42,526 nt of DNA from a virus: positions 1 to 42,526 of IMG/VR virus record IMGVR_UViG_3300032289_001820; one strand, given 5' to 3'. Below are positions 1-42,526 of the stretch, one piece after another. Under the pieces are notes generated by a model. It saw only the letters and a list, made by a program, of their open reading frames with translations, was not told where the DNA came from and searched no databases. The translations under genes were made by a program, and so were the position numbers. How positions within the stretch are numbered: the stretch's first letter is position 1; every line of letters starts with the position of its first letter.

Positions 1-93
1 CAGGTTCCGCTGACGACTCCTCCGATGCCGTAGGCTGTGCCGCTTCGGACATCGCTGGCAGATGGGAAATTCGTGGCGTTGTCGGGGGTGACG
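1..93. repeat. Terminal direct repeat, left copy (circular assembly overlap)
   Basis: Bases 1-93 are identical to 42434-42526. The repeat lies inside one continuous reading frame, so it is best read as the overlap of a circular or circularly permuted assembly and not as a packaged terminal repeat. Its odd length would fit an assembler k-mer. The unique genome is then 42,433 bp. Confidence 0.93.
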
Positions 94-992
94 AGGTTGC
101 GCTTTTGCAGGAGGGTCTGGGTTGCCACCTCAAGGTAGGTTTGGTCGTTAAGCGCGGAGGCCCAGCGCCATGCGGTGCAACCAATGGGGTTCACTCCCAA
201 AGTTGGCGAGATGAGGAATGGGCCGGTAAACAGGGTGACTTGCTGGCGATTTGTGCCGCCGACACCTGCGACAAATTCGCTGGCTTGGATCGCGCCGCTG
301 ATGACCATCGTGCCGGTGGAGTTGTTAAATGCTCCGGGGGAGGCGCTTCCCCCAGTGCAATTCCCCGTTATGTTTAAAACACCCAAAGAATTGTTATTTG
401 CTGCATATGAATTGGTGGCGACGGAGCCACCAGTGCAATTCCCTGTAATGTTTAGGGCACCGGAAAAACTGTTATTTGCTGCATGTATGGTTCCAGTGCT
501 GGTGCTTCCCCCAGTGCAATTCCCCGTTATGTTTAAAGTGCCGCCTGCACTGTTAACTGCACAACTTGCGAAGGTTCCAGTGGTGCAGTTGCCAACAATG
601 TTTAGTGTTCCGCTGGAGGTGTTATTGGCTGCAAATGCGTTTGATCCGCTGCCGCCAATGCAATTACCAACAATTGTAGCAGAGTTGCCAGATGTGCCGG
701 AAAAGGTCACGCAAACAGAATTTCCAAAAGATCCAGCAAAACAATTTGCCGTGAGCGTCACGCCATTCGACAAAGTGAATCCGCCTCCTGCCGTTGCCCC
801 GCCAAATGTGTCATTCCGCACCTCGCCTAGTGCGCCAAGGTTAGTCGAGACATTGACGGCGATGGCGAAGGAATTGGCCATGAGGACATCGCCATTTGCA
901 AAAGTGACCGCCGCTGCCGTGCCGCTGGGCGTGGTGGCCCAGACATCCGAGGCGTTAATGTTTCCTGCCTTACGGGCAAAATAGGTTGCCAT
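1..992 (-). CDS. Tail or appendage protein with NCTGG repeats (N-terminal part; gene crosses the contig edge)
   Basis: The frame opens with an ATG at 992 (MATYFARKAG), runs leftward to base 1 with no stop, and continues in the same frame from 42433 to 41911, giving 504 residues. Residues 1-95 look like the head of a beta-rich phage appendage. Residues about 105-235 hold five imperfect repeats of about 23-26 residues built on LNITGNCTGGS, each with one cysteine at the same place, which suggests a stacked beta-helix with a cysteine ladder (inference). The part after about residue 330 (in 41911-42433) carries two AIKAKTDLL segments of a type common in phage tail proteins. It lies last in the fibre gene block and directly before the lysis cassette. 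No named family is recognised; a virion appendage or host-binding role is inferred from position and repeats. Confidence 0.72.
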   Translation of the reverse strand, partial: MATYFARKAGNINASDVWATTPSGTAAAVTFANGDVLMANSFAIAVNVSTNLGALGEVRNDTFGGATAGGGFTLSNGVTLTANCFAGSFGNSVCVTFSGTSGNSATIVGNCIGGSGSNAFAANNTSSGTLNIVGNCTTGTFASCAVNSAGGTLNITGNCTGGSTSTGTIHAANNSFSGALNITGNCTGGSVATNSYAANNNSLGVLNITGNCTGGSASPGAFNNSTGTMVISGAIQASEFVAGVGGTNRQQVTLFTGPFLISPTLGVNPIGCTAWRWASALNDQTYLEVATQTLLQKRNLVTPDNATNFPSASDVRSGTAYGIGGVVSGT

Positions 993-994
993 GA

Positions 995-1279
995 TTAGAG
1001 TCCTTTCGCGACGAGGTAGGCTTGGAGTGCGGATTGAATCGCCCCGATGGCTTGCTGCTCTTCGGCGCTGGCTTGGGAGAGCGAACCGAGGACGACGGCT
1101 TTGCGGTGCTCAAGACCGGCTTGCTCAACGACTCCGTTTTCGATTCGGGTCGGGATGAGTGACATGGCGACATTCGCGTCTGGCTGGCCGTCTGGCTTGT
1201 AGAAGCCGGTGATGGCGAGGTTTAGCGAGTAGCGGTCGTAGGTTTTGCCGTCGATTTGGAGTGGTGTGGATGCTTGCAT
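995..1279 (-). CDS. Small tail-region protein, 94 aa, unknown
   Basis: The protein starts MQASTPLQIDGKTYDRYSLN and ends with a helical segment (SQASAEEQQAIGAIQSALQAYLVAKGL spans the last third). It is soluble, with no signal peptide or membrane segment and no cysteines. It sits two bases before the start of the repeat-bearing appendage protein and 18 bases after the preceding fibre gene, in the same leftward tail unit. The leader is A/C-rich (AAAAACCACCACC before the ATG) with no Shine-Dalgarno sequence. Position suggests a tail accessory or fibre chaperone, but no family is recognised. Confidence 0.7.
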   Translation of the reverse strand: MQASTPLQIDGKTYDRYSLNLAITGFYKPDGQPDANVAMSLIPTRIENGVVEQAGLEHRKAVVLGSLSQASAEEQQAIGAIQSALQAYLVAKGL

Positions 1280-1297: not shown

Positions 1298-1666
1298 TTA
1301 GGAAAATTGGAGGTTGGTTTTGTTCGACCACGCGCCGGTGGCGGATTGCTCCGAGAGCACATCGCCTGCGGAGTTGCTGGTGATTCGGTAAATTGTCCAG
1401 GCGGTGGAGTCCTCGGCTGGGCCGGATGCGGGGTAGTCGTCCCAGGCGAGGCGGCCGAGGTAGAGGTGGTCGCCGTCCACGGCGTGGAGGAGCTGGTAGT
1501 CGCTGGGGTCGCGGGGGCGGGCGAGTCGGAAAACTTCGTTGGTGTGGTCTTTGCTGTAAAGTCGGCGGTCGGCGAGGTTGATGGCGAGGGAGCCCTGCGC
1601 CACTTGCGCGGCGGTAGGGACTCGACCTGGGACCGTGCTTCGCAGGAGTTTTATGACCGTGGCCAT
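1298..1666 (-). CDS. Tail fibre-type protein with phage N-terminal motif, 122 aa
   Basis: The N-terminus contains PGRVPTAAQVAQGSLAINLA followed by DRRLYSKD. This is the common phage tail-fibre opening in which a 'P-T-..-Q-L..GE.AIN..D..LY.K' segment precedes the fibre body. The remaining 85 residues are beta-rich with several W and Y (DYQLLHAVDGDHLYLGRL), without transmembrane segments. The same opening occurs in the neighbouring 278-residue protein (GAPSSLAVGELAYNKVDDKL), so the two probably belong to the same appendage. The start at 1666 is ATG with no Shine-Dalgarno sequence. A fibre or baseplate-like structural role is supported by motif and location; the receptor is unknown. Confidence 0.72.
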   Translation of the reverse strand: MATVIKLLRSTVPGRVPTAAQVAQGSLAINLADRRLYSKDHTNEVFRLARPRDPSDYQLLHAVDGDHLYLGRLAWDDYPASGPAEDSTAWTIYRITSNSAGDVLSEQSATGAWSNKTNLQFS

Positions 1667-1766: not shown

Positions 1767-2603
1767 CTAGAAGCTGCCGCCGTCGAAGCTGATGCCGTCG
1801 ATGCTGCCGCCGGTGATGGCGACATTGTTGGCATTCTGCGTGGACATCGTGCCGAGTCCTGCTGCGGTGGTCTCCAAGCTGGAGACGCGGCCTGTGAGGG
1901 CTGTCGCGGCGGATTCGATGGAGTTGATGTCACCTTCGGCAGTAGAAACACGGCCAGTAAGGGCTGTGGCTGCTGACTCGATGGCGTTGATATCGCTCTC
2001 GGCTGTGGAAACACGGCCAGAGAGAGTTGTCGCTGCGGACTCGATGGCGTCGATGTCACTCTCTGCGGTGGTGACACGGCCCGCGAGGGTCGAGGCAGCA
2101 CCTTCGATGGTAGCGGCGCGGGACTCAAGGGCGTTGATGTCGCTCTCTGCGGTGTCGAGGCGGCCGTCAAGTGCGGTATCGGCTGCTTCGAGTGTCGCCA
2201 CGGCCGAGCTGAGGGCGCTGGAGGCGCTGTTGGCGAGGGTGGTGATGGCTCCATTGAGGCTGGAGTCTGCGGCCTGGAAGGCGCTCACGACCTCCGTCAA
2301 CGAATCAAGCGATCCTTGTGTGGTGTTCGAAAGCACCGAATCAATGCGTGAACCGAGGGCGGCTTCTGCTGCGGTCGCACGGGATGTTTCCGAGCTGATG
2401 CTGGAGTTCAGCGTGCTGACTTCCGAGGAGAGGTCGGCGTTCGTGGCGAAGTGGCCTTCACCCGCGAGGGTGATGATGCCGCTGTCGAGTCCGATGTAGA
2501 GTTTATCGTCAACCTTGTTATAGGCGAGTTCGCCTACGGCAAGGCTGGACGGGGCTCCGGCGTTACCGGAGAGACGGCGTTTGATGCGAAGGGTATTTGG
2601 CAT
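1767..2603 (-). CDS. Trimeric coiled-coil tail fibre, 278 aa
   Basis: Residues about 1-45 carry the phage fibre opening (RIKRRLSGNAGAP then LAVGELAYNKVDDKLYIG). Residues about 55-250 are an almost unbroken heptad pattern of A, L, I, S and E. The core has three near-identical 21-residue units of the form GRVSTAESDINAIESAATAL, i.e. three heptads each. The C-terminus has QNANNVAITGGSIDGISF, a motif often found at fibre ends that trimerise. This is typical of a shaft that links a tail to a receptor-binding tip. The gene lies between small tail genes and has an A/C-rich leader without Shine-Dalgarno. Structural role is well supported; the binding target is unknown. Confidence 0.8.
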   Translation of the reverse strand: MPNTLRIKRRLSGNAGAPSSLAVGELAYNKVDDKLYIGLDSGIITLAGEGHFATNADLSSEVSTLNSSISSETSRATAAEAALGSRIDSVLSNTTQGSLDSLTEVVSAFQAADSSLNGAITTLANSASSALSSAVATLEAADTALDGRLDTAESDINALESRAATIEGAASTLAGRVTTAESDIDAIESAATTLSGRVSTAESDINAIESAATALTGRVSTAEGDINSIESAATALTGRVSSLETTAAGLGTMSTQNANNVAITGGSIDGISFDGGSF

Positions 2604-10988: not shown

Positions 10989-11018
10989 TTGACCACAGAG
11001 GACACAGAGGACACGGAG
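10989..11018 (+). repeat. Short TTGACCACAGAGG repeat, copy 1
   Basis: The block starts TTGACCACAGAGGACACAG and ends GACACGGAG. It recurs at 12791-12820 with two base changes and forms the outer parts of the long repeats. It lies in the 136-base gap between the terminase stop and the excisionase-like gene. Similar CACAGAGGACACAGAG strings are, from memory, common between genes of many environmental bacteria. Confidence 0.8.
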
Positions 11019-11086: not shown

Positions 11087-12790
11087 TTAATAGCAGCCGC
11101 CTCCTCGGGTGCGGAGGGAGGCGGGGTCTTCGTATTCGACGCCGGAGAGCGCAATATAGCGACAAATATCAATCCAATCTTTTGTTGCACCGCGTTTGCC
11201 GTCGCTGCCGGTCCAGGTCTTGAGGGCGTAGATGAGGTTTTGGCAACGCTCGGAGATGTAGAGGCGGGGGGAGTTGAGGGCATCGACGGGGGCTTCGTCG
11301 TTGTAGGCGAGCCAATCGTTGATGAGGGTGACGCCTTCGACGATGGCTTGGCCGCTGGTGGCGCGGAAGTCGAGGCCGATGCGCTCGCTGCATTGCTCGA
11401 TCAAAGTTCGCACACCTTCATGCGTCATGGTGGGGGTGTTGCCGTAGCGGGAATCCATCCAACGCTCGGCGGGCTCGGCGGAGTCGGCTTTCTCGGCGGC
11501 TTCGATGAGGCGCTTGTAGTCCTCGAATCCAAACCCGGCGCAGGCTTTTTGCGCGGGGCCGGGGCGTCCGTCTTGCAGTTTGCCATCGGCTTCGGCCCAC
11601 GGGCCGGGGTAGCCGACGCCTTCGATGTAATCGAGCTGGTCGGGAAACTCGCGGTAAATCCAGCACCGGCCATCGGGGGTGAATCGAATCCACAACATGG
11701 CCCAAGTTTTCCCTTCGCCGGGATCGACGAAGTGGAAGACGGTTCCCGCTGTGGGAACTTTGTCGTGAGGGACGACATGAACATTTTCGCGGAACTTGGG
11801 GAACATGGACATTCGCGCTTTGGTGGGGACGCCGTAGGCTCGCATCAAGATTCGCTCGCGGTTGCTGCCGCGCAGTTCGGTCTCCATGGCCTCGGGGTTG
11901 CCGTAGGGGTTGTCGGCGGTGTGGAAATAAACGACGCGGGCTTTTTCCCTGGTGCATTGCTGGATGCGGGGGACGCTTTCGACGCCGAGGAGGTGGCCGT
12001 CGCGGTAGCGGGGAAGGAGCGGGGCGGGGCATTCCTCCAAGGTCTTCGCGCCATCGAGGTATTCTTTGACCGTCGTTGTGTAGCCTTCGACCGGCGTGAA
12101 GCCGATGCCGAGTTCGCCGTCGCGGGTGAGCAAGCGGAAGCGCAGGGCTTCGAGCCAATCGGGGGTGACAAGTTCGTCGGCCCAACAGAAATTCAACTCC
12201 GCGCCTTCGATGGAGCTGACATCCATGGAGTAGAACTTGAACCAGCATTGGGAGCCATTTGGCAGGACGAAGGAGTTTTCGGTGAAGCCGCCTTTTTGCG
12301 AATAGGTGATGTTGGCGACGGCACCTTTTTTGAGTTTGCCGCTGGCGCTGGGTTTCCACTCTTTCGGCAAATACTCCCACAAGTAGGGTTGTTGGTTTTG
12401 GATGCTGGCGGCTTCGGTGGATTGGAGGCACCAGACTTTGGCTCCGGGCTTTTCGACGAGGTGCTGCATGGCGCGGCGGGCGAAGTAGCGGGACTTGCCG
12501 GAGCGGTTGCCGCCGAGGATCAGGAGTTCGGTGACGCCTTTGGGGAATTTCTCGCGGAGGCTGTCGTAGGCGCTGTCGGCTCGCTGCCAGGCCGGATTCA
12601 GCCAACCGTAGCGCCACGGGTCTTCGACCATGCGGGCGATCTGCTCCTCGCGCTCGCGGTGGATGGCGAGAAGTTGGGCCTCGGTGGCGGCGAGCTTTTG
12701 GCCTCGGTAGCGGACGACGAAGCTGCCATCGGCGCGGCGGCCTTCGACTTCGATGGGGGGGATGACGGGGTTGGGGGTTTGGGGGATCAT
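11087..12790 (-). CDS. terL: Terminase large subunit, 567 aa
   Basis: This is the motor that cuts and pumps phage DNA into the procapsid. The Walker A P-loop is GGNRSGKS at residues 93-100, followed by an adenine-binding/coupling region (CLQSTEAASIQNQQ). The Walker B acidic pair is in NFCWADE (200-206). The C-terminal nuclease domain begins near FHFVDPGEGKT (about 352-361), whose Asp356 is a likely metal ligand, and continues with WMDSRYGN and the C-terminal DIC motif. Length and motif order fit terminases of headful or cohesive-end phages. The ATG overlaps the preceding gene's stop (ATGA at 12787-12790). No separate small-subunit gene is certain. Confidence 0.9.
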   Translation of the reverse strand: MIPQTPNPVIPPIEVEGRRADGSFVVRYRGQKLAATEAQLLAIHREREEQIARMVEDPWRYGWLNPAWQRADSAYDSLREKFPKGVTELLILGGNRSGKSRYFARRAMQHLVEKPGAKVWCLQSTEAASIQNQQPYLWEYLPKEWKPSASGKLKKGAVANITYSQKGGFTENSFVLPNGSQCWFKFYSMDVSSIEGAELNFCWADELVTPDWLEALRFRLLTRDGELGIGFTPVEGYTTTVKEYLDGAKTLEECPAPLLPRYRDGHLLGVESVPRIQQCTREKARVVYFHTADNPYGNPEAMETELRGSNRERILMRAYGVPTKARMSMFPKFRENVHVVPHDKVPTAGTVFHFVDPGEGKTWAMLWIRFTPDGRCWIYREFPDQLDYIEGVGYPGPWAEADGKLQDGRPGPAQKACAGFGFEDYKRLIEAAEKADSAEPAERWMDSRYGNTPTMTHEGVRTLIEQCSERIGLDFRATSGQAIVEGVTLINDWLAYNDEAPVDALNSPRLYISERCQNLIYALKTWTGSDGKRGATKDWIDICRYIALSGVEYEDPASLRTRGGGCY

Positions 12791-12993
12791 TTGACCACAG
12801 AGGACACAGAGGGCACAGAGGAGGATTTGAGTTTATCTTCGCGCAGGCTTAACCAGGTGATGGCTTTTCCCGAGTCGCCGACATCTTCGGGGGTGACGCA
12901 TTCGTCGGAGATGATGCCGTGGTCTTGGAGGAGATTGAGGGCGTGGTCGGGATCGAAGCAGCGGGCGGTGAGGTAGTCGCGGAGGGAGTTCAT
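12787..12993 (-). CDS. Hypothetical protein, 68 aa, C-terminus encoded by a repeat
   Basis: The start is the ATG at 12993, overlapping the upstream stop as ATGA; the open frame extends further but would run through the neighbouring gene. It begins MNSLRDYLTARCFDPDHALN and has the layout of small phage proteins with one amphipathic helix (LNLLQDHGIISDECV). The last 13 residues (KSSSVPSVSSVVK) are encoded by the short repeat at 12791-12820, so the repeat has become part of the gene's 3' end. Function unknown. Confidence 0.65.
   Translation of the reverse strand: MNSLRDYLTARCFDPDHALNLLQDHGIISDECVTPEDVGDSGKAITWLSLREDKLKSSSVPSVSSVVK
12791..12820 (+). repeat. Short TTGACCACAGAGG repeat, copy 2
   Basis: It reads TTGACCACAGAGGACACAG and ends GGCACAGAG, matching 10989-11018 at 28 of 30 positions. 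It lies immediately before the terminase start codon and encodes the C-terminus of the 68-residue protein. Confidence 0.8.
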
Positions 12994-24057: not shown

Positions 24058-25152
24058 ATGAGAAAACACGGCGAGATTTCAGTTGAATGGAGGAAGGCGA
24101 AAAATACCTGGTATTATCGCGTCCAACTTAATGGCAAGCGGCCCGCTTATTCGACGGGCGTTCACCAACACACGGCGGCGGGCGAGATGGCGGCGATAGC
24201 GAAGGCCAAGCAGCTCCACGCGGCGATGGCCAGCAAGGATCAGCACAAACTTTCTGCCGTGGTGAGGCGTCCAGGCTATGCCACGGCTGGGGAGATCGTG
24301 GACCGGTTCAAGCTCCACGGCCCTGGCGGATCGGCGGTGAAGGCTGCGAGCGGGTTTGCCAAGTATGTTGCCGAGGCCAGCGGCAAGGCGGATTGGCGCG
24401 GCGTGTCCTCTCATTCGGTTCTCACGGCTCCGGTCTTGAGGAATTGGATCACGGTGCGGCTGGCTGCGGGCTGCACCGAGGCGGGCGTGCGGTCGAGTGT
24501 GCAGACGGTCAAGCAAGTGGTGGCCCAGCGGCGGATGCACCTCTTCGCGGATTTGACGCTGCCGGATTTGACGGAGTTCTGGAAAGTCTCTGGCGGAAAA
24601 GCCCAGGATCAAAGCTATGAGCCCATTCCCCGCGACATCCTGCGGCGGATGGATGCGGCGGCGAGGATTCCTCTGCGTCGGGAAAATCCCCGAGTGTGGG
24701 CGATTTACTGGCTCATGCGGCGGGCGGGGTTGCGAAACTCCGAGGTGGCCAAGCTGCGGTGGGATTGGGTGGATTGGCTTCCCAACAAGCGCGGCGTGGA
24801 TTTGGTTCTCATCAAGCGCCCCGACTTTCACAGCAAAAATGGAAAGTATGGCCGAGTGCCTGCGAATCTCCGCCTGATGCGGTTGATCCAGGCCACGCTT
24901 GGCGAGGGCGAGTATGTGATTCCCCGCGCTCACAAGACCGAGGCCGACGACCTGACCCACGACGGCATCAATGATTTTGTGCGGCGCTTCATCCCCGACG
25001 GCGCGAAGGGAGCCTATAATCTGCGAAAGGAATACGGCAGCCGCATCGCTCAGCGGGACGGCCTGGAGGTTGCGGCCAAGCTGCTGCGCGACTCGATGGA
25101 TGTCGTCGAGAAGCACTACCACGCCCTGCTGGAAAGGCCGAAGCCGCTTTAG
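24058..25152 (+). CDS. int: Tyrosine recombinase integrase, 364 aa
   Basis: The start is the ATG at 24058; the frame is open further up but would translate the repeats. Residues 1-55 (RKAKNTWYYRVQLNGKRPAY then STGVHQHT) form an AP2-like arm-binding domain. A core-binding helical domain follows. The catalytic domain has R226 in RRAGLRNSEVAKLRW, K260 or K263 in FHSKNGKYGRVPAN, R323 in AYNLRKEYGSRI and the nucleophile Y354 in EKHYHALLER. The two histidines of the usual R-K-H-R-H-Y set are replaced, Y320 for the first H of HxxR and D345 for the second H. It should catalyse integration at the adjacent tRNA-like attP. It is convergent with the 2008-residue gene, overlapping by 4 bases. Confidence 0.88.
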   Translation: MRKHGEISVEWRKAKNTWYYRVQLNGKRPAYSTGVHQHTAAGEMAAIAKAKQLHAAMASKDQHKLSAVVRRPGYATAGEIVDRFKLHGPGGSAVKAASGFAKYVAEASGKADWRGVSSHSVLTAPVLRNWITVRLAAGCTEAGVRSSVQTVKQVVAQRRMHLFADLTLPDLTEFWKVSGGKAQDQSYEPIPRDILRRMDAAARIPLRRENPRVWAIYWLMRRAGLRNSEVAKLRWDWVDWLPNKRGVDLVLIKRPDFHSKNGKYGRVPANLRLMRLIQATLGEGEYVIPRAHKTEADDLTHDGINDFVRRFIPDGAKGAYNLRKEYGSRIAQRDGLEVAAKLLRDSMDVVEKHYHALLERPKPL

Positions 25153-28100
25153 CGGGCTTTGTAGAGTTTGCTGTGTTGGACTAGGCCACGGATGGCGGAT
25201 TGCGCGGCGGCGCGGTTGCCAAACTCCATGTTGGTTTCCACCTCGTCCATGGCTTGCCGGTAGGTGCGATACCATTGGCCGAGTTCGTAGTAGCGCAAAG
25301 TTTCGCGGTCGCTGCGGTTCTCGCCTCGGTTTTTGAGGTAGTTGTATTCGGTGCGGAGGCCGTTCACCTGGTCGGGGAGCGAGAGTCGGACCTTGGCCAT
25401 GTCGCGCTTGTCGGCTTCGTCGGCTTTGGCTTCGCTTTGATAAACGCCTCGGTCGCTGATTTTGATGAACCGATTCAGAATAGGCGCGGCGCTGAGGGTT
25501 GTTTCGGTGAGCGTGTCGGCCTTGGGATCGTAGGTGAAAAAGTTGGTGATGCCGGTTTGCTCCAGCGTCCAGCCGAGCATGGGCTTGGTGGCATCCCATC
25601 CCCCGGCGAGCCATTGGTCGTCGGAGAGGATGTAGCGGTTGCGGAAATCATCACGCGGATTGCGGCCTGCCAGGAAGGTTGTCCAGTTCTGGCCGAGTTC
25701 GAGGATGGTGTTGGTGCCGGGGACTTGGGAGCTGATGCCTGCGAAAACCTCGCCGAGTTGCGGCGCGGAGGGATCGCCTTTGGCGGAGCGGATGGCCGAG
25801 GTGAGCATTTTACTCACGACGCCGTTGATGACGCGCAGCCCTTCATCTTGTGGAAGGCGGGCATAGACGGTCTTGCCGCCGGTCTCGCCGGTGGGGACTT
25901 CGCCGAGGGGCAGCACGGCAAAGTTCGTCATGTCCCAAGCAGGCACGCGGGAGTAGAGCTTTTCGAGGTCTTTGCCGAAGAGTCCTTCTTTGGCGAGGGT
26001 TTGCAGGACAGCGATAAGGCCGCCGCCGGTGAGCGCCCAGGCCAGCCACCATTCCTTGCCCCCCATGTTGCGCTCGGCTCCTCGGAGGTTGCGTTGCAGG
26101 GAATCGTAGGAGCGGAGGAAGATGTTGAGAAACGGCACCAGCGCACCAGCGGCTTGGGCGTGGCGGCCTTTCTTGTAGTAGTTCGGGATGCCGATGTGGT
26201 TGCGGATGGTGTTGGCTGCTTGCGGCGCGGGGATGCCGGTATCTTTGACCAGGACTTTGTAGGCGGCGGCTTTGGGTAGGAGTTGCAGGACTTGCCCGGC
26301 AAACTCGATGCCTTTGAGCGGGGCCATGAGAGCTCGGACAAAACCATTTCGGGATTGCTGATCTTGCAGGTGATACTTGCGGAGGATGGCGTCGAGGCTG
26401 TCGTCGTCGCTCCCCATGCGGCCACCGAAGGCGCTGTGCGGTCCGCCTGTGGCGGCGTTCTCAATCATCTCGCGGAGGAGTTCGGTCTTGCCGATGTCTC
26501 CCCTCGCCCATTCCACGGAGGCTCCCCAGGTTTCGGGATCGAGGAGGCGCTGGAGGAAACGGGCGCGGCCTTGGATGCCGCCAGGCATGTTGGTGATGGA
26601 TCGTTGAAGGTCGCGGGCGGGCGACATGAAAAGCTGGAAGGCCGGGTTGTAGCGGATGATCGCGCCATAGACGAGGCGTTGGAATCCCGTCGAGAGGAGC
26701 TTAAGAATGGCGTCGCGCTCGGCGGGGGATTGATCCTCCCACATGCGGGCGTAGCGGTCGGGGAGGTGAACGCCGGTGAGTTGGCCATCGTCCTTCCATT
26801 GCACCAGGGTAAAGCCAGTTTCTTGTGACTCCTGCGGCACCATGGCTTTGCCGTTGTATTTCATGGGCGCGGGCTTCACCAGCTCTGGCGCGGTCTGGCG
26901 GATCGCCTCCACGGCGGCGCGTTTGAATCGGTTATTCTGCGCGGCGCGGTGGATGCTGATGGATTTAAGCACCGTTTGCTGGAGCGGGTCGGCGATTTCC
27001 TTGAAGGTTCCCACCTGCTTGCGGATGGCCGAGGGTAGATACTCCTGCACATATTCCAGCGGGGTGAAGGCGGCGTAGTTGTCGCGGTTGGCGCTGATGA
27101 TTTCCCAGAGGTCGGCAGAGAAAAGCCCGGCGTCGTTCGCATCCTCCATGATGGTGAAAACAACATCGCGGAATCCCGCGACGGCGGATTCGAGGGCGGC
27201 GGTTTTATCAGGGCCGAGGCGCTGCTGGAGCGAGGCGAGCATTTCGGCGGAGGTGCGGGCGGTCTCGCCGCCAGGGTTGGCCATTACGGCGCGGCCTTTC
27301 TCCACCGTGAGATCCATTCCTTTGATCTTCTCAGTGACTTCGTAGCGTTCGTTGGCGATGCGGTGATGCTTGAGCCAGACGCCGAAATAATCACGCGGCA
27401 CGCCTGCCGCATCGAGGCTTTGGTAGAGACGGCCAATGTCGGCGAGCTTGAGCTGGAGCTTGCTGTCGGCCAGCGGGTGCTCCTCGGTGAGCCAGCGGAT
27501 GCCGTCCTCCGACGCCTTGGTGATGGTGCCAGCGGCGCGGGCCTTGGCGGCGGACTCGATGAGCGGTTGGTAGCGGTTCCAGTATTGGTCTTTGAGGTTT
27601 TCCCACCAGCCGGTGAGGCTGGCGCGGCGCTCGGCAGCGGCGGCCTGCTTGCCAACGAAAACCTCGGCTCCTGCCTTGAAGGATTCCAGGTCGCGGGCGA
27701 GGCGCTTGTCCAGCACAGCATCGCGGCCCATGAGGATGCGGTTTTGAATCTCGAAGATGCTGGCCTTCACCTGCGGGCGGGCGTCGGCGTAGTTCCAGAA
27801 GGCTTTGTAAAATACGGGGGCGCGGGCTTGGAGGTCCGCCGGGGAGTTGAAGAGCACGCTGATGGCGTCGGCGTAGAGTTCTTCGGCGCTGTGTCGGTAG
27901 TCCACATAGCTATCCTTGGCATCGTCATAGCTGAAGGGCTTCCACCATTCGGATAGGTTGATGAGTTCTTCGCGGATGTTCGGCGAGTAGCCGCCTTGCT
28001 TCTCGGAGACAGCGCCAAGGTTTCGAGTGTCCATGGTTTGCTGCACAAGCTCGCGGTAGCGGGTGGTGCGGGCGTCGGGATCGGAAGGATTCTCGGCCTT

Positions 28101-31100
28101 GGCTTGAGCTTGGAGCTTGCGGCGGTCGGCAGTGGTAAGGGCCGGGCCTGCGCCGGGCGTTATTGGAAAAGTGGTCTTGAGATAGTTAGCCACATTCATG
28201 ATGTGGCCGCCGAGGTTGCCGAGCTTAATGTTGCGCTCATCCATCCAGCTCACCAGGTGGCCGATCTCGTGGGCGAAGGTCATCATGGCACTGGCTTCGT
28301 TTTGGAAAAGGTCAGGCCGGAGCGTGATGATGCCGGAGCCGGGGTTGAATGTGCCGAGGGCTTTGGGCATTCGTTTCAACTTCGGGTCGTTGCCGGTGAG
28401 GGAGCGCACCATTTCTACCAGCTCGGGCATTTCCATGACGGGCACCTTGTCCGTGCCGCCGAGGATCAGAGGCATCGTCCAGCCGCTGCTTTTTGTGGAA
28501 CGCACCACGCCAACGGCATCGGGGAAGTCGGCGAAGACTTGAGCGTCGTTGTAGGTTTCGAGCGGTGGCTTGGGGAGCGTGGCGGTGGTGGGAAGGAGCG
28601 GGGCGGGCGGCCCGGCGTCGGCCATCGACTTGCCGCCTCGGGAGGATTTGGCGGGGGGACCGGCATCGGCAAAGGCCATGTTGGTTTGGCTTTTCTGCGC
28701 TTCCTCGTAGGCGGCTTGCTGGCGGTTGGCTTCGTCGGCTTCGCGTTGCAGCTTTAAGCTGTCGTCATCCAGCGGGCGGTCGAGGCTGAATGGCATTTCG
28801 CCAGGGGTAAAAAGATTGCCTGAGAAGGGTTCGGCTTGCGGTGCGGCGGCGGGCGCGGTGTCGGTCTCAGTGAGAAATGAGAAGCCATCATCCTGTGAGG
28901 GGGAGATTTCGGTTTCCTGCACCCACATTTGCGTGCCGTCTTCCACTTTCTGGAGGCCAAACTTTGCGCCGTCTTCCAGGGAAATGGTGAAGGTCTCGGG
29001 GTCGATGGCTTTCACATTGAGCCATTCGTCTGCGATCTTCACGCGGTCGCCGATCTTGAGGTCGCTGGTTGTGACCGGTTGCAGGTTGGATTTCTTGGTC
29101 TTCGAGGGGTCGAGGGCTTGTTTAGTGAAGGTGTCGTATTGCTTTTGGATTTTATTTTGCTCGGCCTCGGTGGGGTCGCCATCCTTGATTTGACGGTAGC
29201 TATTGACCTCCGCCATGTAGGCGTTGAACAAAGTATCCGGCGAGGGGTCGGGCAATAAACCTTGCTCGAAGAGTTCTTGGGCGCGGACATCGTAGGGTTG
29301 GCCTGTCGAGCGGTGGGTCTCGGCGAAGTGCCTGCCGGTGCGGCGGATTTCGTTCCAAAAATCATTTTCTCCGCCCGCCGTGCCGCTTTTGCTCGGGCGC
29401 ATCGGGCTTTCTTGAAGCGCGGAAAGGATAGGAAATGGGCCGGGATCGTAGGAGATGCGGGGGAACTGGCGCTTGGGCTTGGCGGGCGGCGGAGTGGTGG
29501 CCCCCTCCCCGGCGATCACTTCGGGTGAGCCTGTCAGTTCAGGCGCTGTTGGTGCGCTTGCTGCGGGAGCAGAGGCGGTTGGGGGAATGTCGTCAACCAG
29601 CGTGGCGGTGGTGGGGTCGAAGGGGATGATGTTCGACGGCTCGGCAGCGGGTCCTGGTAAAGCAGGCACGCCCTCGGGGCCGGGCAGGGCGTTGGTGCCG
29701 CCTTGGAAAGCTGGCGCGGGGCCGCCTCGGTTGAGGAAGGCTTGGCCGGTGTAGGCGGCAGGGCTTCCAGAAAGCGGCACGGCGGCTTGGGGATTCTCGG
29801 CGGCGTAGGCCAAGGCGGGCTGGCCTGCGGGAGGAGCGAATCCTGCATCGGCCAAGGCGGATTGCTGGAAGCGGGGGTTGATGATCTCGGTGGTATCGAG
29901 GAAGCGGAAGCCTGCGGCGTCCACGGTGGCGCGGCGGATGGCTTGGGCATCGAGGAGGCGTTCATCGGCGCGGAGGGTATCCACGGCTTGGCGCATGACT
30001 CGGTAGTCCTCGGCCTCTTGGCGGGTGGCGCGTCCGGTTTTGACCTGGGATTCAAGTGTGACCAATTCCTCGGGGGCGTAGGTTTTATTGCGAGCCTTTA
30101 CCCCGAGGCCCGCGCCGAGGCCGCCGAAGATGGCGGAGATGCCGGTGCTGGCGGGGTTGTATTGCGGGCGGGGGGCGAGTTGTTCGCCGGTCTGGCGGAA
30201 ATGCTCCATCGCCACTTCCTTGCTGATGTCTTGGTGCAGGAGTTTATCGAGGCCGAGGTTGCCGACTTGGATCGTGGCGTCGGTAGCCACGCCGATGCCT
30301 GCGCCTGCGCCGAAGGCTCCGGTGACAAACTTGGCGGCGGCGGCGCTGCCTTTCTCGGCTTGGATGAGATTGGCGGCATTCGCCAGGCGGGAGATGGAAA
30401 CGGGCGTGGGGGCGAGGATCGAGACGAGCTGGCCGCCGGTGTTGTAGCCGGGCTTGAGTTGGTTCGCGGCGTAGAAGCTATCGAGCAGGTCGCTTTCCTT
30501 GGAGGAAAGTTCGAGGAGCTTGTCGTAGGCGGCTCCGGTGCCGAGCGCGGCGGCGGTGCCTGCGCCAATGCCAACGGCGATGGCCCCCGGTCCAGTAAAG
30601 CCGGTGGCTGTGGCGGCGGCTCCCCCTCCCACGATGGCGGCTCCGGTTTGCATGGCTCCTTTGAGCAAGCCGGAGGCGGCGGCTTTGGCTTCGGGGAAAG
30701 CTCCGGCGCGGCGCTCCAAGTCGCGGCGGGCGGCGGTGGCTTTCTCCACCGAGGGGATCACGGTGCGGGTGGCTTCGTCCCATTGATCCACGGTGCCTTT
30801 CTGGAGCTGGGTGTAGGAGTCGGAGTCGATCACCCCGGCGGACCACAGATTCTCGACGGCGGAGTTGTAGCGAGCGGGGTCGATGTAGATGCGGCCTTCG
30901 AGGACTTTCCAAGATTGGCTGCCCTCGGGGAAAATCCCCTCTTCGCGGATAAGTTGATCCTCGCGCATCCCGGCATCGCGGGCGGCATCGAGTTCGGGAT
31001 TCGGTGCGGGCAATGGCGAAGGCGTGGCAGCGGGCAAGGCGGGCTCGTCCTCGACAAGAACGGCGGTGGTGGGATCGAATCCCATCGGTTCCTCCTCCGC

Positions 31101-31175
31101 CGGCACGGCAGAGGCGGCATCGAAATCAGCCGGTTCGTCCTCGATGAGAACGGCGGTGGAGGGATCGAAACTCAT
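25149..31175 (-). CDS. Large polyvalent internal-virion protein with zincin motif, 2008 aa
   Basis: The ATG at 31175 overlaps the upstream stop (ATGA); the TTG two codons earlier is less likely. The motif FDP[ST]TA.L..D occurs three times: near residues 3, 33 and 515. Residues about 175-215 are glycine- and alanine-rich and hydrophobic (GAAIVGGGAAATATGFTGPG), possibly membrane-active. HEIGH at about 969-973 (FAHEIGHLVSWMDE) is the HExxH zinc-metallopeptidase signature. The C-terminal 600 residues (IGIPNYYKKGRHAQAAGALV, then FLNIFLRSYDSLQRNL) resemble the LPD38-type end of large polyvalent phage proteins. Such proteins ride in the head and are injected to assist DNA entry or attack host targets. 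It is the last gene of the leftward unit. The role is inferred from family habits. Confidence 0.72.
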   Translation of the reverse strand: MSFDPSTAVLIEDEPADFDAASAVPAEEEPMGFDPTTAVLVEDEPALPAATPSPLPAPNPELDAARDAGMREDQLIREEGIFPEGSQSWKVLEGRIYIDPARYNSAVENLWSAGVIDSDSYTQLQKGTVDQWDEATRTVIPSVEKATAARRDLERRAGAFPEAKAAASGLLKGAMQTGAAIVGGGAAATATGFTGPGAIAVGIGAGTAAALGTGAAYDKLLELSSKESDLLDSFYAANQLKPGYNTGGQLVSILAPTPVSISRLANAANLIQAEKGSAAAAKFVTGAFGAGAGIGVATDATIQVGNLGLDKLLHQDISKEVAMEHFRQTGEQLAPRPQYNPASTGISAIFGGLGAGLGVKARNKTYAPEELVTLESQVKTGRATRQEAEDYRVMRQAVDTLRADERLLDAQAIRRATVDAAGFRFLDTTEIINPRFQQSALADAGFAPPAGQPALAYAAENPQAAVPLSGSPAAYTGQAFLNRGGPAPAFQGGTNALPGPEGVPALPGPAAEPSNIIPFDPTTATLVDDIPPTASAPAASAPTAPELTGSPEVIAGEGATTPPPAKPKRQFPRISYDPGPFPILSALQESPMRPSKSGTAGGENDFWNEIRRTGRHFAETHRSTGQPYDVRAQELFEQGLLPDPSPDTLFNAYMAEVNSYRQIKDGDPTEAEQNKIQKQYDTFTKQALDPSKTKKSNLQPVTTSDLKIGDRVKIADEWLNVKAIDPETFTISLEDGAKFGLQKVEDGTQMWVQETEISPSQDDGFSFLTETDTAPAAAPQAEPFSGNLFTPGEMPFSLDRPLDDDSLKLQREADEANRQQAAYEEAQKSQTNMAFADAGPPAKSSRGGKSMADAGPPAPLLPTTATLPKPPLETYNDAQVFADFPDAVGVVRSTKSSGWTMPLILGGTDKVPVMEMPELVEMVRSLTGNDPKLKRMPKALGTFNPGSGIITLRPDLFQNEASAMMTFAHEIGHLVSWMDERNIKLGNLGGHIMNVANYLKTTFPITPGAGPALTTADRRKLQAQAKAENPSDPDARTTRYRELVQQTMDTRNLGAVSEKQGGYSPNIREELINLSEWWKPFSYDDAKDSYVDYRHSAEELYADAISVLFNSPADLQARAPVFYKAFWNYADARPQVKASIFEIQNRILMGRDAVLDKRLARDLESFKAGAEVFVGKQAAAAERRASLTGWWENLKDQYWNRYQPLIESAAKARAAGTITKASEDGIRWLTEEHPLADSKLQLKLADIGRLYQSLDAAGVPRDYFGVWLKHHRIANERYEVTEKIKGMDLTVEKGRAVMANPGGETARTSAEMLASLQQRLGPDKTAALESAVAGFRDVVFTIMEDANDAGLFSADLWEIISANRDNYAAFTPLEYVQEYLPSAIRKQVGTFKEIADPLQQTVLKSISIHRAAQNNRFKRAAVEAIRQTAPELVKPAPMKYNGKAMVPQESQETGFTLVQWKDDGQLTGVHLPDRYARMWEDQSPAERDAILKLLSTGFQRLVYGAIIRYNPAFQLFMSPARDLQRSITNMPGGIQGRARFLQRLLDPETWGASVEWARGDIGKTELLREMIENAATGGPHSAFGGRMGSDDDSLDAILRKYHLQDQQSRNGFVRALMAPLKGIEFAGQVLQLLPKAAAYKVLVKDTGIPAPQAANTIRNHIGIPNYYKKGRHAQAAGALVPFLNIFLRSYDSLQRNLRGAERNMGGKEWWLAWALTGGGLIAVLQTLAKEGLFGKDLEKLYSRVPAWDMTNFAVLPLGEVPTGETGGKTVYARLPQDEGLRVINGVVSKMLTSAIRSAKGDPSAPQLGEVFAGISSQVPGTNTILELGQNWTTFLAGRNPRDDFRNRYILSDDQWLAGGWDATKPMLGWTLEQTGITNFFTYDPKADTLTETTLSAAPILNRFIKISDRGVYQSEAKADEADKRDMAKVRLSLPDQVNGLRTEYNYLKNRGENRSDRETLRYYELGQWYRTYRQAMDEVETNMEFGNRAAAQSAIRGLVQHSKLYKAR

Positions 31176-32221
31176 TTCCAAGCATCGTTGCCACGGTAGG
31201 TTTTTACATTGCCAGCGGCATCGCGGTAGCGTTTGCCGACTTGGAATTTCTCAGGCGTGGGCATGGGGTTCGGGCGGGGAGTTTGTGAAGGGGCGGCGGA
31301 GCGGGTGGCAGGCGTCGGCGCTGGCGTGGCAGCGGGCGCGGGGGAGGATTTGGAGGAGCGGTTCACGGGGCGGATGGCGACTTCGATGCGTTTGTCGAAA
31401 TCAGATTTCTCGCTTTCCAGTTGCTTGCGGAGGGAAGCCACCTTGGTTCCGCCGAGCCACCCGGCAGGCTCATAGGTGCCGGTCTCGTCGTTGTAGGCCA
31501 CAGATTCCGCCTCGGTAAAACGAGTGAGATCCGTGAGGCGAGCGCCGACATTTTCACTCTGGAGCTGGAGGCGTTTGATGTTGTCCTCTTGCGTAGCGGA
31601 AAGTTTCGCGGGGCCGCGAACGGCTTCCCCGCTGTTTTCATAATATGCCGGGAAGCTGCGGCCCGTGAGCGGGTCGATCATAACCATGGTGCCATCCTCG
31701 GCTTGCTTGATTTCCTTCTTCACAGGCTCCGGTTGTTTATCTGCTTCAATTCGCTGGCCATTTGCAAAATACACCGTGCGGCCATCGGGCAGGGCTACGG
31801 TCTGAACTTGCGAAGCGCGGGCTTGCTTCACGCTGGCTTGGTAAATGCGGAGGGCATCGCTGGCGCGGAGGCGACCGCCCGAGGCTTTGGCAGCGCGAAT
31901 GACTTCCTTCTCATGCGGCGAGAGGGCGGCCCATTGTTCCTTGCTGGTAATGCGGAGGCTGGCTCCCTGGGCGAGTCGGGCGGCGACGGCATCGAAAGGC
32001 TCGTCGTCTTGACCCGCCACGGCATCGAGGGCTTGGCCCACCGGTTGTTGCTGGGTGGCCGGATCGACGGCATCAAACGCTGCCGATAAGGGCATGATGT
32101 TATTTGGATCAGCGTCGGCAGAGGGGTTCACCGGGAGCGGCACAACTTGGTCGTTGTCGAGATTGGCCTGCCGTGGAAGCGGCACGGAATTTACAAAAGC
32201 GTTTTGTGCGGGGGAGGCCAT
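31172..32221 (-). CDS. Internal virion protein candidate, 349 aa
   Basis: MASPAQNAFVNSVPLPRQAN leads into a low-complexity leader and a helical middle (HEKEVIRAAKASGGRLRASD, then KRLQLQSENVGARLTDLTRF). A 'VMIDPLTGRSFPAYYE' segment lies near residue 200. The C-terminal 80 residues are A/P/T-rich (PAPAATPAPTPATRSAAP) followed by KFQVGKRYRDAAGNVKTYRG, a small beta module seen at the ends of phage structural proteins. It is coupled to the 2008-residue protein (ATGA at 31172-31175) and probably travels with it in the virion. No family is recognised. Confidence 0.64.
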   Translation of the reverse strand: MASPAQNAFVNSVPLPRQANLDNDQVVPLPVNPSADADPNNIMPLSAAFDAVDPATQQQPVGQALDAVAGQDDEPFDAVAARLAQGASLRITSKEQWAALSPHEKEVIRAAKASGGRLRASDALRIYQASVKQARASQVQTVALPDGRTVYFANGQRIEADKQPEPVKKEIKQAEDGTMVMIDPLTGRSFPAYYENSGEAVRGPAKLSATQEDNIKRLQLQSENVGARLTDLTRFTEAESVAYNDETGTYEPAGWLGGTKVASLRKQLESEKSDFDKRIEVAIRPVNRSSKSSPAPAATPAPTPATRSAAPSQTPRPNPMPTPEKFQVGKRYRDAAGNVKTYRGNDAWK

Positions 32222-32737: not shown

Positions 32738-33031
32738 TTAGGGGGTTGGGAGGTTTTGGGATTGGCGGGCTTCTAAGCAGAGAGGGCTACCGGGCTGGAA
32801 GGACCGGCAGGCGGATGGGCGTGATTCGTATATTGCGCAGGCGACTCCTCGGCCCACCGCGCCACGGAGGGCGATGCAGCGTGCGCAGGGTGAGGTTTTG
32901 AGCAGAGGGTAGTCGGTGCGGAGGTATTCGGCAGGGATGCCGGTGGCGTCGGAGCGGTCGCGCCGGAGCACGGGCCAACTCCACTTGTGGCTGCAACATG
33001 CGCCACACCGTTGACAATCGTATTGTTCCAT
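32738..33031 (-). CDS. YkgJ-type cysteine-cluster protein, 97 aa
   Basis: MEQYDCQRCGACCSHKWSWP is the typical YkgJ/UPF0153 opening, with cysteines at 6, 9, 12 and 13, then SPCARCIAL (49, 52), GVACAIYESRPSACRSF (65, 75) and LCLEA (85). The family binds zinc or iron-sulphur and is often linked to metal or sulphur chemistry. Its ATG at 33031 is in a different frame inside the 3' end of the PAPS-reductase-like gene, so 259 bases are shared. The cysteine pattern proves this frame is coding. The pairing with a sulphur-related enzyme hints at joint work on a thiol or metal step. Confidence 0.75.
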   Translation of the reverse strand: MEQYDCQRCGACCSHKWSWPVLRRDRSDATGIPAEYLRTDYPLLKTSPCARCIALRGAVGRGVACAIYESRPSACRSFQPGSPLCLEARQSQNLPTP

Positions 33032-39281: not shown

Positions 39282-39728
39282 CTATTTTCTATTCTGCGGA
39301 GGCTTGTCAAGGAGGCTGCGGATGGCTTTGGCGCTAATGCGCGGCTCGCCTTTGAATCGCATCAGGTCTGCAAGTTGGCTGGGGGTCTTACCGCGATGGC
39401 GGCCAAGGACGGCTTGCACCCGGTCGAGCAAATGGGCCGGAATGCCTGCGATGGCTTGGGGCGAGGATTTGGCGGGCTTGGGGGTGCCGGGCTCGATGAT
39501 GCGGTAGCAGGTGACTTGCACGGGGCGCATGGTGGCGGCGTCCCAATCGCTGAATTTTTTGGTCTCAATGTCGCGGGCCTCGATGGCGTCGCGCAGGAGG
39601 TCGTGGACATTTCGCTCGGGCTGGCCAAGCTGGCGGGCGGCTTGCTGTCGTGTAATCCAGCCTTGGTTCGGGGGGATGCCGTATTTGAGGGCTTTGTGCT
39701 TGAGGGCGATGGCGGCGAGTTTGTTCAT
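39282..39728 (-). CDS. Helix-turn-helix-like protein, 148 aa
   Basis: The start at 39728 overlaps the upstream stop (ATGA). MNKLAAIALKHKALKYGIPP is followed by NQGWITRQQAARQLGQPERN and VHDLLRDAIEARDIETKKFS, in which ITRQQAARQLGQPERNVHDL is a clear helix-turn-helix. The C-terminus (GRHRGKTPSQLADLMRFKGE, RISAKAIRSLLDKPP) has a second helical, basic unit. It may regulate late genes or bind a packaging site. Its stop is directly before the start of the nozzle protein. Confidence 0.72.
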   Translation of the reverse strand: MNKLAAIALKHKALKYGIPPNQGWITRQQAARQLGQPERNVHDLLRDAIEARDIETKKFSDWDAATMRPVQVTCYRIIEPGTPKPAKSSPQAIAGIPAHLLDRVQAVLGRHRGKTPSQLADLMRFKGEPRISAKAIRSLLDKPPQNRK

Positions 39729-40711: not shown

Positions 40712-40953
40712 TCGTCGTCGTCCTCCTCGTCGGGATCGTAGGGCCACAGCATGTCTTCGGCTTCGCGGCAGAGAGATTTCGCTGCGTAGTCGTTGCCGAA
40801 TTTTAGATCCATGTAGAAAGTCTCGCCCTCCGCTTCCCAACTCACGATGCAGAGGCCGACATCGAAATGCTCGGCCAGGAGGTCACGGACTTGGAGCATG
40901 ACGGCTTCGCGGTCTTTCGGTGGGGAGGTTTTGGGTTTGCGCAGGCGGCTCAT
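40708..40953 (-). CDS. Small acidic protein, 81 aa
   Basis: The start at 40953 overlaps the endolysin stop (ATGA). It reads MSRLRKPKTSPPKDREAVML, then a beta-rich core (VGLCIVSWEAEGETFYMDLK) and an acidic tail (DEEDDDE). Its stop overlaps the metallophosphoesterase start. No family is recognised. Coupling suggests it may act with one of its neighbours, such as inhibiting or activating the phosphoesterase. Confidence 0.62.
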   Translation of the reverse strand: MSRLRKPKTSPPKDREAVMLQVRDLLAEHFDVGLCIVSWEAEGETFYMDLKFGNDYAAKSLCREAEDMLWPYDPDEEDDDE

Positions 40954-41402
40954 GCGAATATGTCCTTCCCTGCGGCGACGCGCTCGCGCATTTGGGCGAG
41001 GGTGAGGCCGGTTGGCACTTCGTAGTGCGGTGTGTCTTTGAAACTTTTGAAATCCCCTCCCCATGTGAGGCCGAGGCTGAGGGCGGCTTGGCCGATCTCG
41101 GTGTAGATGGGTGAGTCGGTGAGGTAGGTCTTGCCCTTGAAGAGGCCGATGTCCCAGGCGGTGCCGAAGTTGTGGTTGGAAAAGCCAGCGCGGGCGTTGG
41201 TGACTTTCGGGCCTTTGGCCGTGCGGCCTTTGGCGTAGAGCGCATCCTGTTCGGCGTAGCTGCGCAGACCGGAGATGATGCGGACCGCCACGCCGTGAGC
41301 GGTTGCGAGGTCGAGCGCGAGCCGCATGAACTCTCGCGCTTTCGGCTGGGCGGCTGGGTGCAGCGTCGAGATGTTGCGCTCAGTTCGCTCGTCGAAGGTC
41401 AT
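40950..41402 (-). CDS. Endolysin, M15/VanY-type peptidase, 150 aa
   Basis: The start is the ATG at 41402 (MTFDERTERNISTLHPAAQP), overlapping the upstream lipoprotein stop (ATGA); longer readings run through that gene. ISGLRSYAEQDALYAKGRT is the family's entry. Zinc ligands H77 and D84 in SNHNFGTAWDI, and H126 in DTPHYEV, give the M15 L-Ala-D-Glu / D-Ala-D-Ala peptidase site. The enzyme cuts peptidoglycan stem peptides at the end of infection. The length is that of phage M15 endolysins. It lies last in the lysis cassette, after spanin-like and holin-like genes. Confidence 0.86.
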   Translation of the reverse strand: MTFDERTERNISTLHPAAQPKAREFMRLALDLATAHGVAVRIISGLRSYAEQDALYAKGRTAKGPKVTNARAGFSNHNFGTAWDIGLFKGKTYLTDSPIYTEIGQAALSLGLTWGGDFKSFKDTPHYEVPTGLTLAQMRERVAAGKDIFA

Positions 41403-41575
41403 TTGCTGGAGGACGGATTGGGAAGCTCGGGGAGCTGATAGCAGAAGGTGCCGTAGTCGGTCTTGAGACAGACTTGGGGCGAGCCCATGCTGGCGCACCC
41501 ACCGAGGAGCAGGAGGGCTCCTACGGCAAAGGCAGTGGCGAGAAGGCCGGTGACGATCTGGGCGGGGTGGATCAT
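41399..41575 (-). CDS. Spanin-like lipoprotein (Rz1-type), 58 aa
   Basis: MIHPAQIVTGLLATAFAVGA ends in a lipobox LLGGC with Cys at residue 27, so the protein is lipid-anchored. The mature part is short and proline-containing (LPELPNPSSSK), as in Rz1-type outer-membrane spanins that help disrupt the outer membrane. It overlaps both neighbours by ATGA (41572-41575 and 41399-41402) in the lysis cassette. A separate Rz partner is not seen, so it may act alone or with a host protein. This implies a Gram-negative host. Confidence 0.72.
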   Translation of the reverse strand: MIHPAQIVTGLLATAFAVGALLLLGGCASMGSPQVCLKTDYGTFCYQLPELPNPSSSK

Positions 41576-41736: not shown

Positions 41737-41911
41737 GGGGGTGTTTTCTGTTTTTGAGGATGGCGTAGAGGGAGGCGAGGCCGACGGCACAGCCGATGAG
41801 CAAGGACGCGATACGAAGCCACGCCTCCAGCTCGGGGAGCATGGAGACCGTGAGGCCTGTTGCCGTAGCAAGCAGGCCGGTGAAGGAGGCGGTGGCTTGG
41901 TGGGTGTCCAT
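41729..41911 (-). CDS. Holin-like membrane protein, 60 aa
   Basis: MDTHQATASFTGLLATATGL and a second hydrophobic segment (LRIASLLIGCAVGLASLYAI) give two membrane spans with a basic C-terminus (LKNRKHPHE). This fits a class II-type holin that permeabilises the inner membrane. Its ATG at 41911 overlaps the stop of the large appendage gene by one base (TAATG), and it precedes a second holin-like gene, spanin-like lipoprotein and endolysin. The functional order is inferred from position. Confidence 0.7.
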   Translation of the reverse strand: MDTHQATASFTGLLATATGLTVSMLPELEAWLRIASLLIGCAVGLASLYAILKNRKHPHE

Positions 41912-42526
41912 TAGCTGAGGGCGGCAGCGAGCTGGGCTCCGGTGGTCGAGACCGTCGAGCATTGCGCCAAACGGGTGGTTTCGAGGAGGTCCGTCTTAGC
42001 CTTGATGGCCGAAATGTTGGCCGAAGGGATGTCGCCGGTCGCTGCTGGCGAGGCGGGGAGGAGGTCTGTCTTTGCCTTGATGGCTGCGAGCTGCGTGCTG
42101 TTGCTGTCGATCTCGGCGCGGATTGAAGCGGCGCTTGGGACGGTTGGCGCGTTGGTCAGAGTTGTGACCGTGCCGCCCGTGATTGTGCGTGTAGCATGAC
42201 TCCAGATGTCGCTCGGCGTGACAGATGCGGGGGCGTTAGTGAGGTTGGTAACGGTGGCGAGGGTGCCGCTTGGTGCGAGGCGCGACGAGATGGAGGCATC
42301 CAGACGCCCCAACTCGACGGAAAGCTCGGATCTCACAGCCGTGGCGATTTCGCCAGCGGTAGCAGAGGCCAGCGTTCCGACAGTGTTATCCACGGGAGTC
42401 CCAGCCGCAACCTGCGCTGGGGACGGGACGATACAGGTTCCGCTGACGACTCCTCCGATGCCGTAGGCTGTGCCGCTTCGGACATCGCTGGCAGATGGGA
42501 AATTCGTGGCGTTGTCGGGGGTGACG
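41911..42526 (-). CDS. Tail or appendage protein with NCTGG repeats (C-terminal part; gene crosses the contig edge)
   Basis: This is the 3' part of the 504-residue gene that starts at 992; 42434-42526 repeats 1-93, so no extra residues are added. The last 160 residues contain TVTTLTNAP and PSDIWSHATRTITGG, then two AIKAKTDLL segments separated by an alanine/serine linker. AIKAKTDLL segments are widespread in tail-associated phage proteins. The final helix (STVSTTGAQLAAALS) ends the gene. A GTG at 42393 could be read as a false start; the true start lies across the edge. Confidence 0.72.
   Translation of the reverse strand, partial: VTPDNATNFPSASDVRSGTAYGIGGVVSGTCIVPSPAQVAAGTPVDNTVGTLASATAGEIATAVRSELSVELGRLDASISSRLAPSGTLATVTNLTNAPASVTPSDIWSHATRTITGGTVTTLTNAPTVPSAASIRAEIDSNSTQLAAIKAKTDLLPASPAATGDIPSANISAIKAKTDLLETTRLAQCSTVSTTGAQLAAALS
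42434..42526. repeat. Terminal direct repeat, right copy (circular assembly overlap)
   Basis: It is identical to bases 1-93. See the left copy: the frame of the 504-residue gene runs through the joint, so removing one copy yields a closed circle of 42,433 bp. Confidence 0.93.

Follow-up and report, generated by a model that had tools for sequence, protein, structure and literature searches.

A predicted beta-helix appendage protein with in-phase cysteines and its small neighbour p94 recur together among phages in IMG/VR

The DNA analysed here, called the window, is a stretch of 42,526 nucleotides that comprises positions 1 to 42,526 of the IMG/VR virus record IMGVR_UViG_3300032289_001820. A perfect direct terminal repeat marks the record as circular or circularly permuted. 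The gene under study, which encodes the repeat protein hereafter called the solenoid protein, is incomplete within the window, being cut by the start of the record. When one copy of the terminal repeat was removed, the frame resumed at 42433-41911, giving a protein of 504 amino acids on the circle. The features of the locus are as follows.

1-93 = 42434-42526: direct terminal repeat, 93 bp
992..3, minus strand: first 330 codons of the putative appendage gene with a predicted beta-solenoid; the frame leaves the window at position 1 (open reading frame, and homologues with the same start)
41911..42433, minus strand: remainder of the solenoid gene over the circular join, C-terminal region (terminal repeat and in-frame continuation)
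753..992, minus strand: N-terminal cap, residues 1-80, with the motif GNINASDVWAT (alignment conservation)
288..782, minus strand: solenoid rungs, residues about 71-235 (repeats, predicted model, and profile scan)
741-743, 660-662, 585-587, 516-518, 435-437, and 357-359, minus strand: codons of the in-phase cysteines Cys84, Cys111, Cys136, Cys159, Cys186, and Cys212, respectively
995..1279, minus strand: p94, small neighbour gene, 94 amino acids; its stop codon lies 2 nt before the solenoid ATG
1298..1666, minus strand: short protein carrying an N-terminal module known from long tail fibre proteins (phrog_1699, E 3e-10)
1767..2603, minus strand: coiled-coil tail needle or fibre-like protein (phrog_1219, E 4e-10; coiled-coil matches may be unspecific)
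40950..41498, minus strand: peptidase M15/VanY (endolysin), located past the solenoid gene on its 3' side (PF13539, E 7e-13; PF02557, E 2e-10)

Holin-like and lipoprotein-like frames, recognised by reading the translation by eye, lie between the solenoid gene and the M15/VanY gene. The solenoid gene thus follows tail-fibre-like genes and precedes lysis genes, a gene order that makes a location of its product at the phage tip plausible. Elsewhere in the window, a major head protein and a terminase were recognised, and the portal was assigned from a weak SU10_portal match (E 2e-4, below the cut-off) together with distant matches to annotated portals.

Between the two fibre-like genes, the GTTTTAAG-rich segment 1668-1703 has matches of 30-35 bp (91-94%) elsewhere in the loci L020, L031 (two places), and L063, and may be a regulatory or recombination element that these loci have in common. 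The terminase gene (11087-12790) is flanked by the two copies, 93% identical, of a 30-nt repeat (10989-11018 and 12791-12820). The 2010-codon frame 25149-31181 had no match in Pfam or PHROGs, and the protein encoded at 32773-33861 had a short match to phosphoadenosine phosphosulfate reductase (phrog_424, E 1e-10).

The initial annotation had described five repeats with one cysteine in each turn, together with DNA repeats at about 355, 435, and 515. The DNA repeats were borne out: the 14-mer CCAGTGCAATTCCC is found exactly at 352, 430, and 511, with a further copy carrying two mismatches at 655, and a family of 71-nt direct repeats starts at 336, 414, and 495; relative to the first copy, the second has 77% identity and the third 72%. 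Translated on the minus strand, these repeats correspond to protein repeats of the LNITGNCTGGS type with about 25 residues per turn. The regular placement of one cysteine per turn also held, with repeat cysteines at residues 111, 136, 159, 186, and 212 (spacing 25, 23, 27, and 26), whereas the count proved to be six, since a profile scan in which cysteine was scored neutrally placed Cys84, whose codon lies outside the interval first described, in a sixth in-phase rung. The cysteine-bearing repeats are therefore confirmed as real. The first 330 residues hold nine cysteines in all, Cys94 and Cys144 lying within the repeat region but off register and Cys272 beyond it. When nine cysteines were placed at random in 330 residues, a chain of six at spacings of 22-28 arose in 19 of 100,000 placements; this null is crude, as residues are in any case shared between duplicated repeats and the range of spacings was chosen with the repeats already in view. 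The rung cores of Cys159 and Cys212 show no difference across 33 nt, suggesting some recent copying between rungs. The C-terminal region carries motifs of the AIKAKTDLL and ELxRxDAxISSRLA types; in this part (41911-42433) and in relatives, the latter and AIKAKTDLLPASPA form a second kind of repeat.

Relatives were collected by scanning IMG/VR. The single solenoid protein found 17 loci, and an alignment found 109, of which 80 were kept. From these, 82 entries gave 70 distinct proteins once exact duplicates were removed; near-identical proteins were retained among the 71 (window included), so that the counts below are not independent. Complete relatives range from 368 to 843 amino acids. In the 37-member alignment A2, 24 of the 28 invariant columns fall in the cap (residues 1-80), as do all of the conserved acidic residues D16, D35, and D61, and the conserved positions of the rungs are mainly glycines. 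The profile scan of the 71 proteins scored five rungs in 27, six in 20, four in 12, seven in nine, two in two, and three in one. The same scan of 13 other genes of the window (first 400 residues) scored none or one, and at least three rungs were scored in 58 of 1420 shuffled sequences (20 shuffles of each of the 71 proteins, first 330 residues).

Profile searches of the window's solenoid protein against Pfam, PHROGs, and NCBIfam returned no family, and scans of all 37 A2 members against profile families returned single-member matches only, with E values of 0.078 or worse. The solenoid alignment A1 matched no PDB sequence at E<=1, tblastn found no match to the protein in INPHARED phages, and a scan of genome contigs found no relative and hence no link to a host or prophage. 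Among the paper titles listed in literature searches on ladders of cysteines, on InlJ, and on solenoids or fibres of phages, none dealt with this family, a weak sign that the family is unpublished.

An AlphaFold2 model of the window protein built from 37 sequences (pLDDT 82.5, pTM 0.82) shows a parallel beta-helix, and over residues 71-230 most blocks reach a pLDDT of 89-98, with one at 80. By DSSP, two-residue strands are predicted at 111-112, 136-137, 159-160, 186-187, and 212-213, each opened by the in-phase cysteine, and Cys84 lies inside the predicted strand 83-85. In the model, regular coils with parallel strands are stacked in register according to DSSP and VIA-align 2, and, by the DSSP register, five cysteines recur at one and the same strand position from coil to coil, as in the fucoidan lyase domain FdlA-NTD. 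The prediction agrees with the initial annotation, which had foreseen a stacked beta-helix whose turns each place a cysteine at an equivalent position and had named structure prediction as the check. The annotation's view was to be refuted by a predicted structure that had no solenoid and cysteines lying far apart; the model predicts a solenoid, with the cysteines in register as judged by secondary structure.

Foldseek found no PDB match to the model below E 0.04; the best 50 rows were mostly beta-helix proteins, with FdlA-NTD at rank 41. VIA-align 2, which scored Foldseek's own candidates again and thus covers only families among those rows, gave a Z of 16.3 (rmsd 4.7, 269 residues aligned) with the tailspike 6f7k and a Z of 15-16 with alginate epimerase, pectate lyase, and pertactin; these neighbours imply a right-handed turn for the predicted solenoid. 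The likeness to tailspikes and pectate-lyase-like proteins (6f7k, 6w4q, and 1ru4) and to pertactin (1dab) consists in the predicted parallel beta-helix with stacked strands; no sequence relation to the solenoid protein was found, and no catalytic family was matched. In BFVD, Foldseek found A0A6J5NS31 and A0A6J7WPQ3 (E 3e-11 and 2e-4), uncharacterised proteins of uncultured Caudovirales phages with no function given, which are probably direct relatives.

We then compared the residue aligned with the in-phase cysteines, here called X, across the 71 proteins, using the profile scan, which is neutral for cysteine in every column. Among 373 rungs, X was Val in 112, Ala in 98, Cys in 79, Ile in 33, Leu in 26, Ser in eight, and another residue in 17, so that 294 rungs carry a residue other than cysteine; the cysteine is not conserved along the ladder across the family. 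At any other column from -16 to +8, cysteine reached 4.8% at most. Cysteine thus favours X, as one among small hydrophobic residues, as far as the aligned sequences tell. An earlier tally by regular expression (286 rungs; A 78, V 76, C 72) is superseded by the profile scan, and its absence of cysteine from neighbouring columns is uninformative, as its residue classes barred cysteine there. Every ladder cysteine of the window protein has a cysteine in a neighbouring rung; across the family, 25 of the 79 cysteines at X have none on either side. Among the 18 closely grouped proteins, the window protein being one of them, the string of X residues ranges from CCCCCC in the window to VPPPPI in L035, with VCVCV in L028 and L029, which are closely related to each other, and CVVVV in L006 between these extremes. 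All scored rungs carry cysteine in four of the 71 proteins (window, L027, L008, and L030, with L008 and L030 nearly identical), or in eight of 71 by the cruder regular expression. Among the six commonest residues at each column from -8 to +8, the only one of His, Asp, and Glu to appear was Asp, in eight of 373 rungs at +3.

A model of L006, with Val at four of its five rungs, was predicted to fold alike (pLDDT 79.3), with two-residue strands at 108-109, 133-134, and 162-163 and residue 189 within a longer predicted strand; as a control it is weak, since the same 37 sequences were used in another order and the model is not independent of that of the window protein.

These results bear on the proposal in the initial annotation that the cysteine ladder is stabilised by disulphides or metal, an unusual design for a phage tip. 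The claim of novelty is weakened by published reports, in which cysteine ladders in solenoids already appear. FdlA-NTD has a beta-helix in which five cysteines, one ladder spanning coils 4-8, are stacked, an arrangement regarded as stabilising by its authors, although it is an enzyme from outside phages and its ladder lies beneath the substrate groove (PMC9410043). InlJ, cited in PMC3196904 and PMC9525666 for a novel cysteine ladder, is likewise a solenoid but has a leucine-rich repeat fold and is a Listeria protein. A virion cross-linked by disulphides is known in phage Milano, a precedent with no link to the solenoid protein (PMC10811340).

That stacked thiols act as disulphides or metal ligands to stabilise the rod would fit the six in-phase cysteines of the window protein, their shared predicted strand position in five successive rungs, the few proteins with cysteine in every scored rung, and the Milano precedent. 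We nevertheless consider this highly improbable, and the proposed stabilisation is not upheld: relatives place Val, Ala, Ile, or Leu at X in most rungs, nearly a third of the cysteines stand isolated, the two close relatives L028 and L029 alternate Val and Cys, the four-Val relative L006 is predicted with the same rungs, and potential metal ligands near X are few. The observed swaps at X and the isolated cysteines are not what a family-wide requirement for pairing or metal would produce. In addition, phage proteins fold in a reducing cytoplasm, and disulphides are poorly suited to in-register neighbouring parallel strands. A role for cysteine confined to the all-cysteine lineage is possible, as cysteine concentrates at X.

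The pattern instead looks like ordinary core packing. Each turn of about 25 residues would have three strands: a long one, T-L-N-I-T, then one of two residues opened by X (which is Cys in the window protein) and, after a loop whose length varies, another short one, A-x-x-A-N. Small hydrophobic side chains at X probably point inward and pack in the core; cysteine is, alongside Val and Ala, among the three residues commonly found there and is probably present as a reduced, buried thiol. The X residues, stacked turn upon turn, would then pack much as aliphatic side chains do in the stacks of other beta-helices.

Subsequently, the neighbourhood of the solenoid gene was compared among relatives. 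p94 was present in all 70 loci and lay directly upstream of the solenoid gene in 69. A reverse search of IMG/VR with p94 confirmed at least 191 loci, of which 80 were kept; among the matches listed, the first frame downstream of p94 had at least three solenoid rungs in 77 of these 80, and in the remaining three the downstream pieces (69-112 amino acids) were cut by contig ends. As a control, the longest upstream frames, taken from sequence trimmed at the p94 start, had no rung in 64 of 71 cases and one rung in seven. The cap type of the window was found in 43 of the 80 p94 loci, many of them contigs of the first locus set. The other 37 (L115-L175) failed the strict cap motif and carried other caps, e.g., GNFNAGATWVGG and GNWSDTNTTTSPW, on a similar solenoid, suggesting that the family is wider than the subgroup of the window. 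p94 itself matched no family in Pfam or PHROGs at E<=0.1, including no TFA or other chaperone profile; its alignment A4 matched no PDB sequence at E<=1, and tblastn found no match in INPHARED phages. From the observed adjacency, we infer that p94 may be a partner (chaperone or adaptor) of the solenoid protein. The gp24-gp25 fibre and chaperone pair of Pam3 similarly sets an appendage gene beside a small gene (PMC9608196); p94 differs in lying upstream of its appendage gene and in having no relative in Pfam, PHROGs, or PDB sequences.

The pair was then followed through 22 whole records, picked for length and spread from those behind the 70 loci. p94 was found in all 22, the window's portal in six, and its terminase in seven, namely the same six and one weak match (E 5e-4); the portal was also found in eight of 30 loci with at least 7.5 kb upstream. 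IMG/VR records may be fragments, so that a missing portal in these counts is not proof of a different backbone. Two loci serve as examples: L063 has a terminase 99% and a portal 96% identical to those of the window but a p94 with 49% identity; L021 has a p94 96% identical to that of the window, and neither portal nor terminase could be detected in its 38 kb. At the DNA level, the window and L063 are 93% identical at 9343 to 5221 and 92% at 39326 to 35867. Much of the tail and lysis block that separates these stretches does not align; the pieces that do have 69-83% identity, except for a single piece of 35 nt that matches at another position (91%). This discordance of p94 and the solenoid gene with portal and terminase is most simply read as exchange of an appendage block between phages. 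The nearest isolate, Phage C75C1, has only 28.5% identity in the portal and 31.2% in the terminase, and its record names no host.

Taken together, we consider it fairly probable that the solenoid protein is a beta-helix phage appendage whose cysteines serve in core packing, that it likely binds the host surface, and that it is exchanged with p94 as a cassette. Rung number and loop length vary among relatives, the cap is nearly constant, and the gene lies 2 nt behind p94; with a virion location made plausible by gene order, binding of the host surface by the tail would be the most likely function, and p94 and the solenoid gene would move between phages together. The presence of many tailspikes and of polysaccharide lyases or epimerases among the fold neighbours could point to a beta-helix tailspike enzyme, a polysaccharide depolymerase using the solenoid groove. 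This seems quite improbable, given that the profile searches matched no enzyme family beyond the marginal single-member matches and that conservation, acidic residues included, is concentrated in the cap, the rungs keeping mainly glycines.

A protein that serves as a structural spacer or decoration and binds no receptor, and in which variable rungs set a length or drift neutrally, would account for the partial homogenisation of the rungs: identity at 4-fold third positions was 1333/3425 = 0.389, against 0.318 expected from the codons of the same genes (a descriptive comparison), and the Cys159 and Cys212 cores share their 33 nt. We regard such a spacer as rather unlikely, since its gene accompanies a fixed neighbour across phages whose backbones differ, and such an occurrence is typical of host-recognition modules. 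Returning to the host-binding appendage, a bolder version, which we offer tentatively as a possibility, is a plug-in adhesion cassette: the cap and the neighbour would fix a length-variable beta-helix onto the tails of unrelated IMG/VR phages, and the two genes would carry host range, tuned by gain, loss, or copying of rungs.

Reading the cysteines as core packing removes a tempting lead, and the pairing with p94 and its spread over different backbones is a more useful result than the cysteine pattern. The solenoid protein belongs to no Pfam, NCBIfam, or PHROG family, yet a single scan of IMG/VR found relatives at 109 loci. With a constant cap, a variable rod, and a fixed neighbour, it offers a simple marker of appendage exchange between phages that have no portal or terminase in common. 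Should p94 prove to be a chaperone or adaptor, it would represent a new type of partner for beta-helix appendages.
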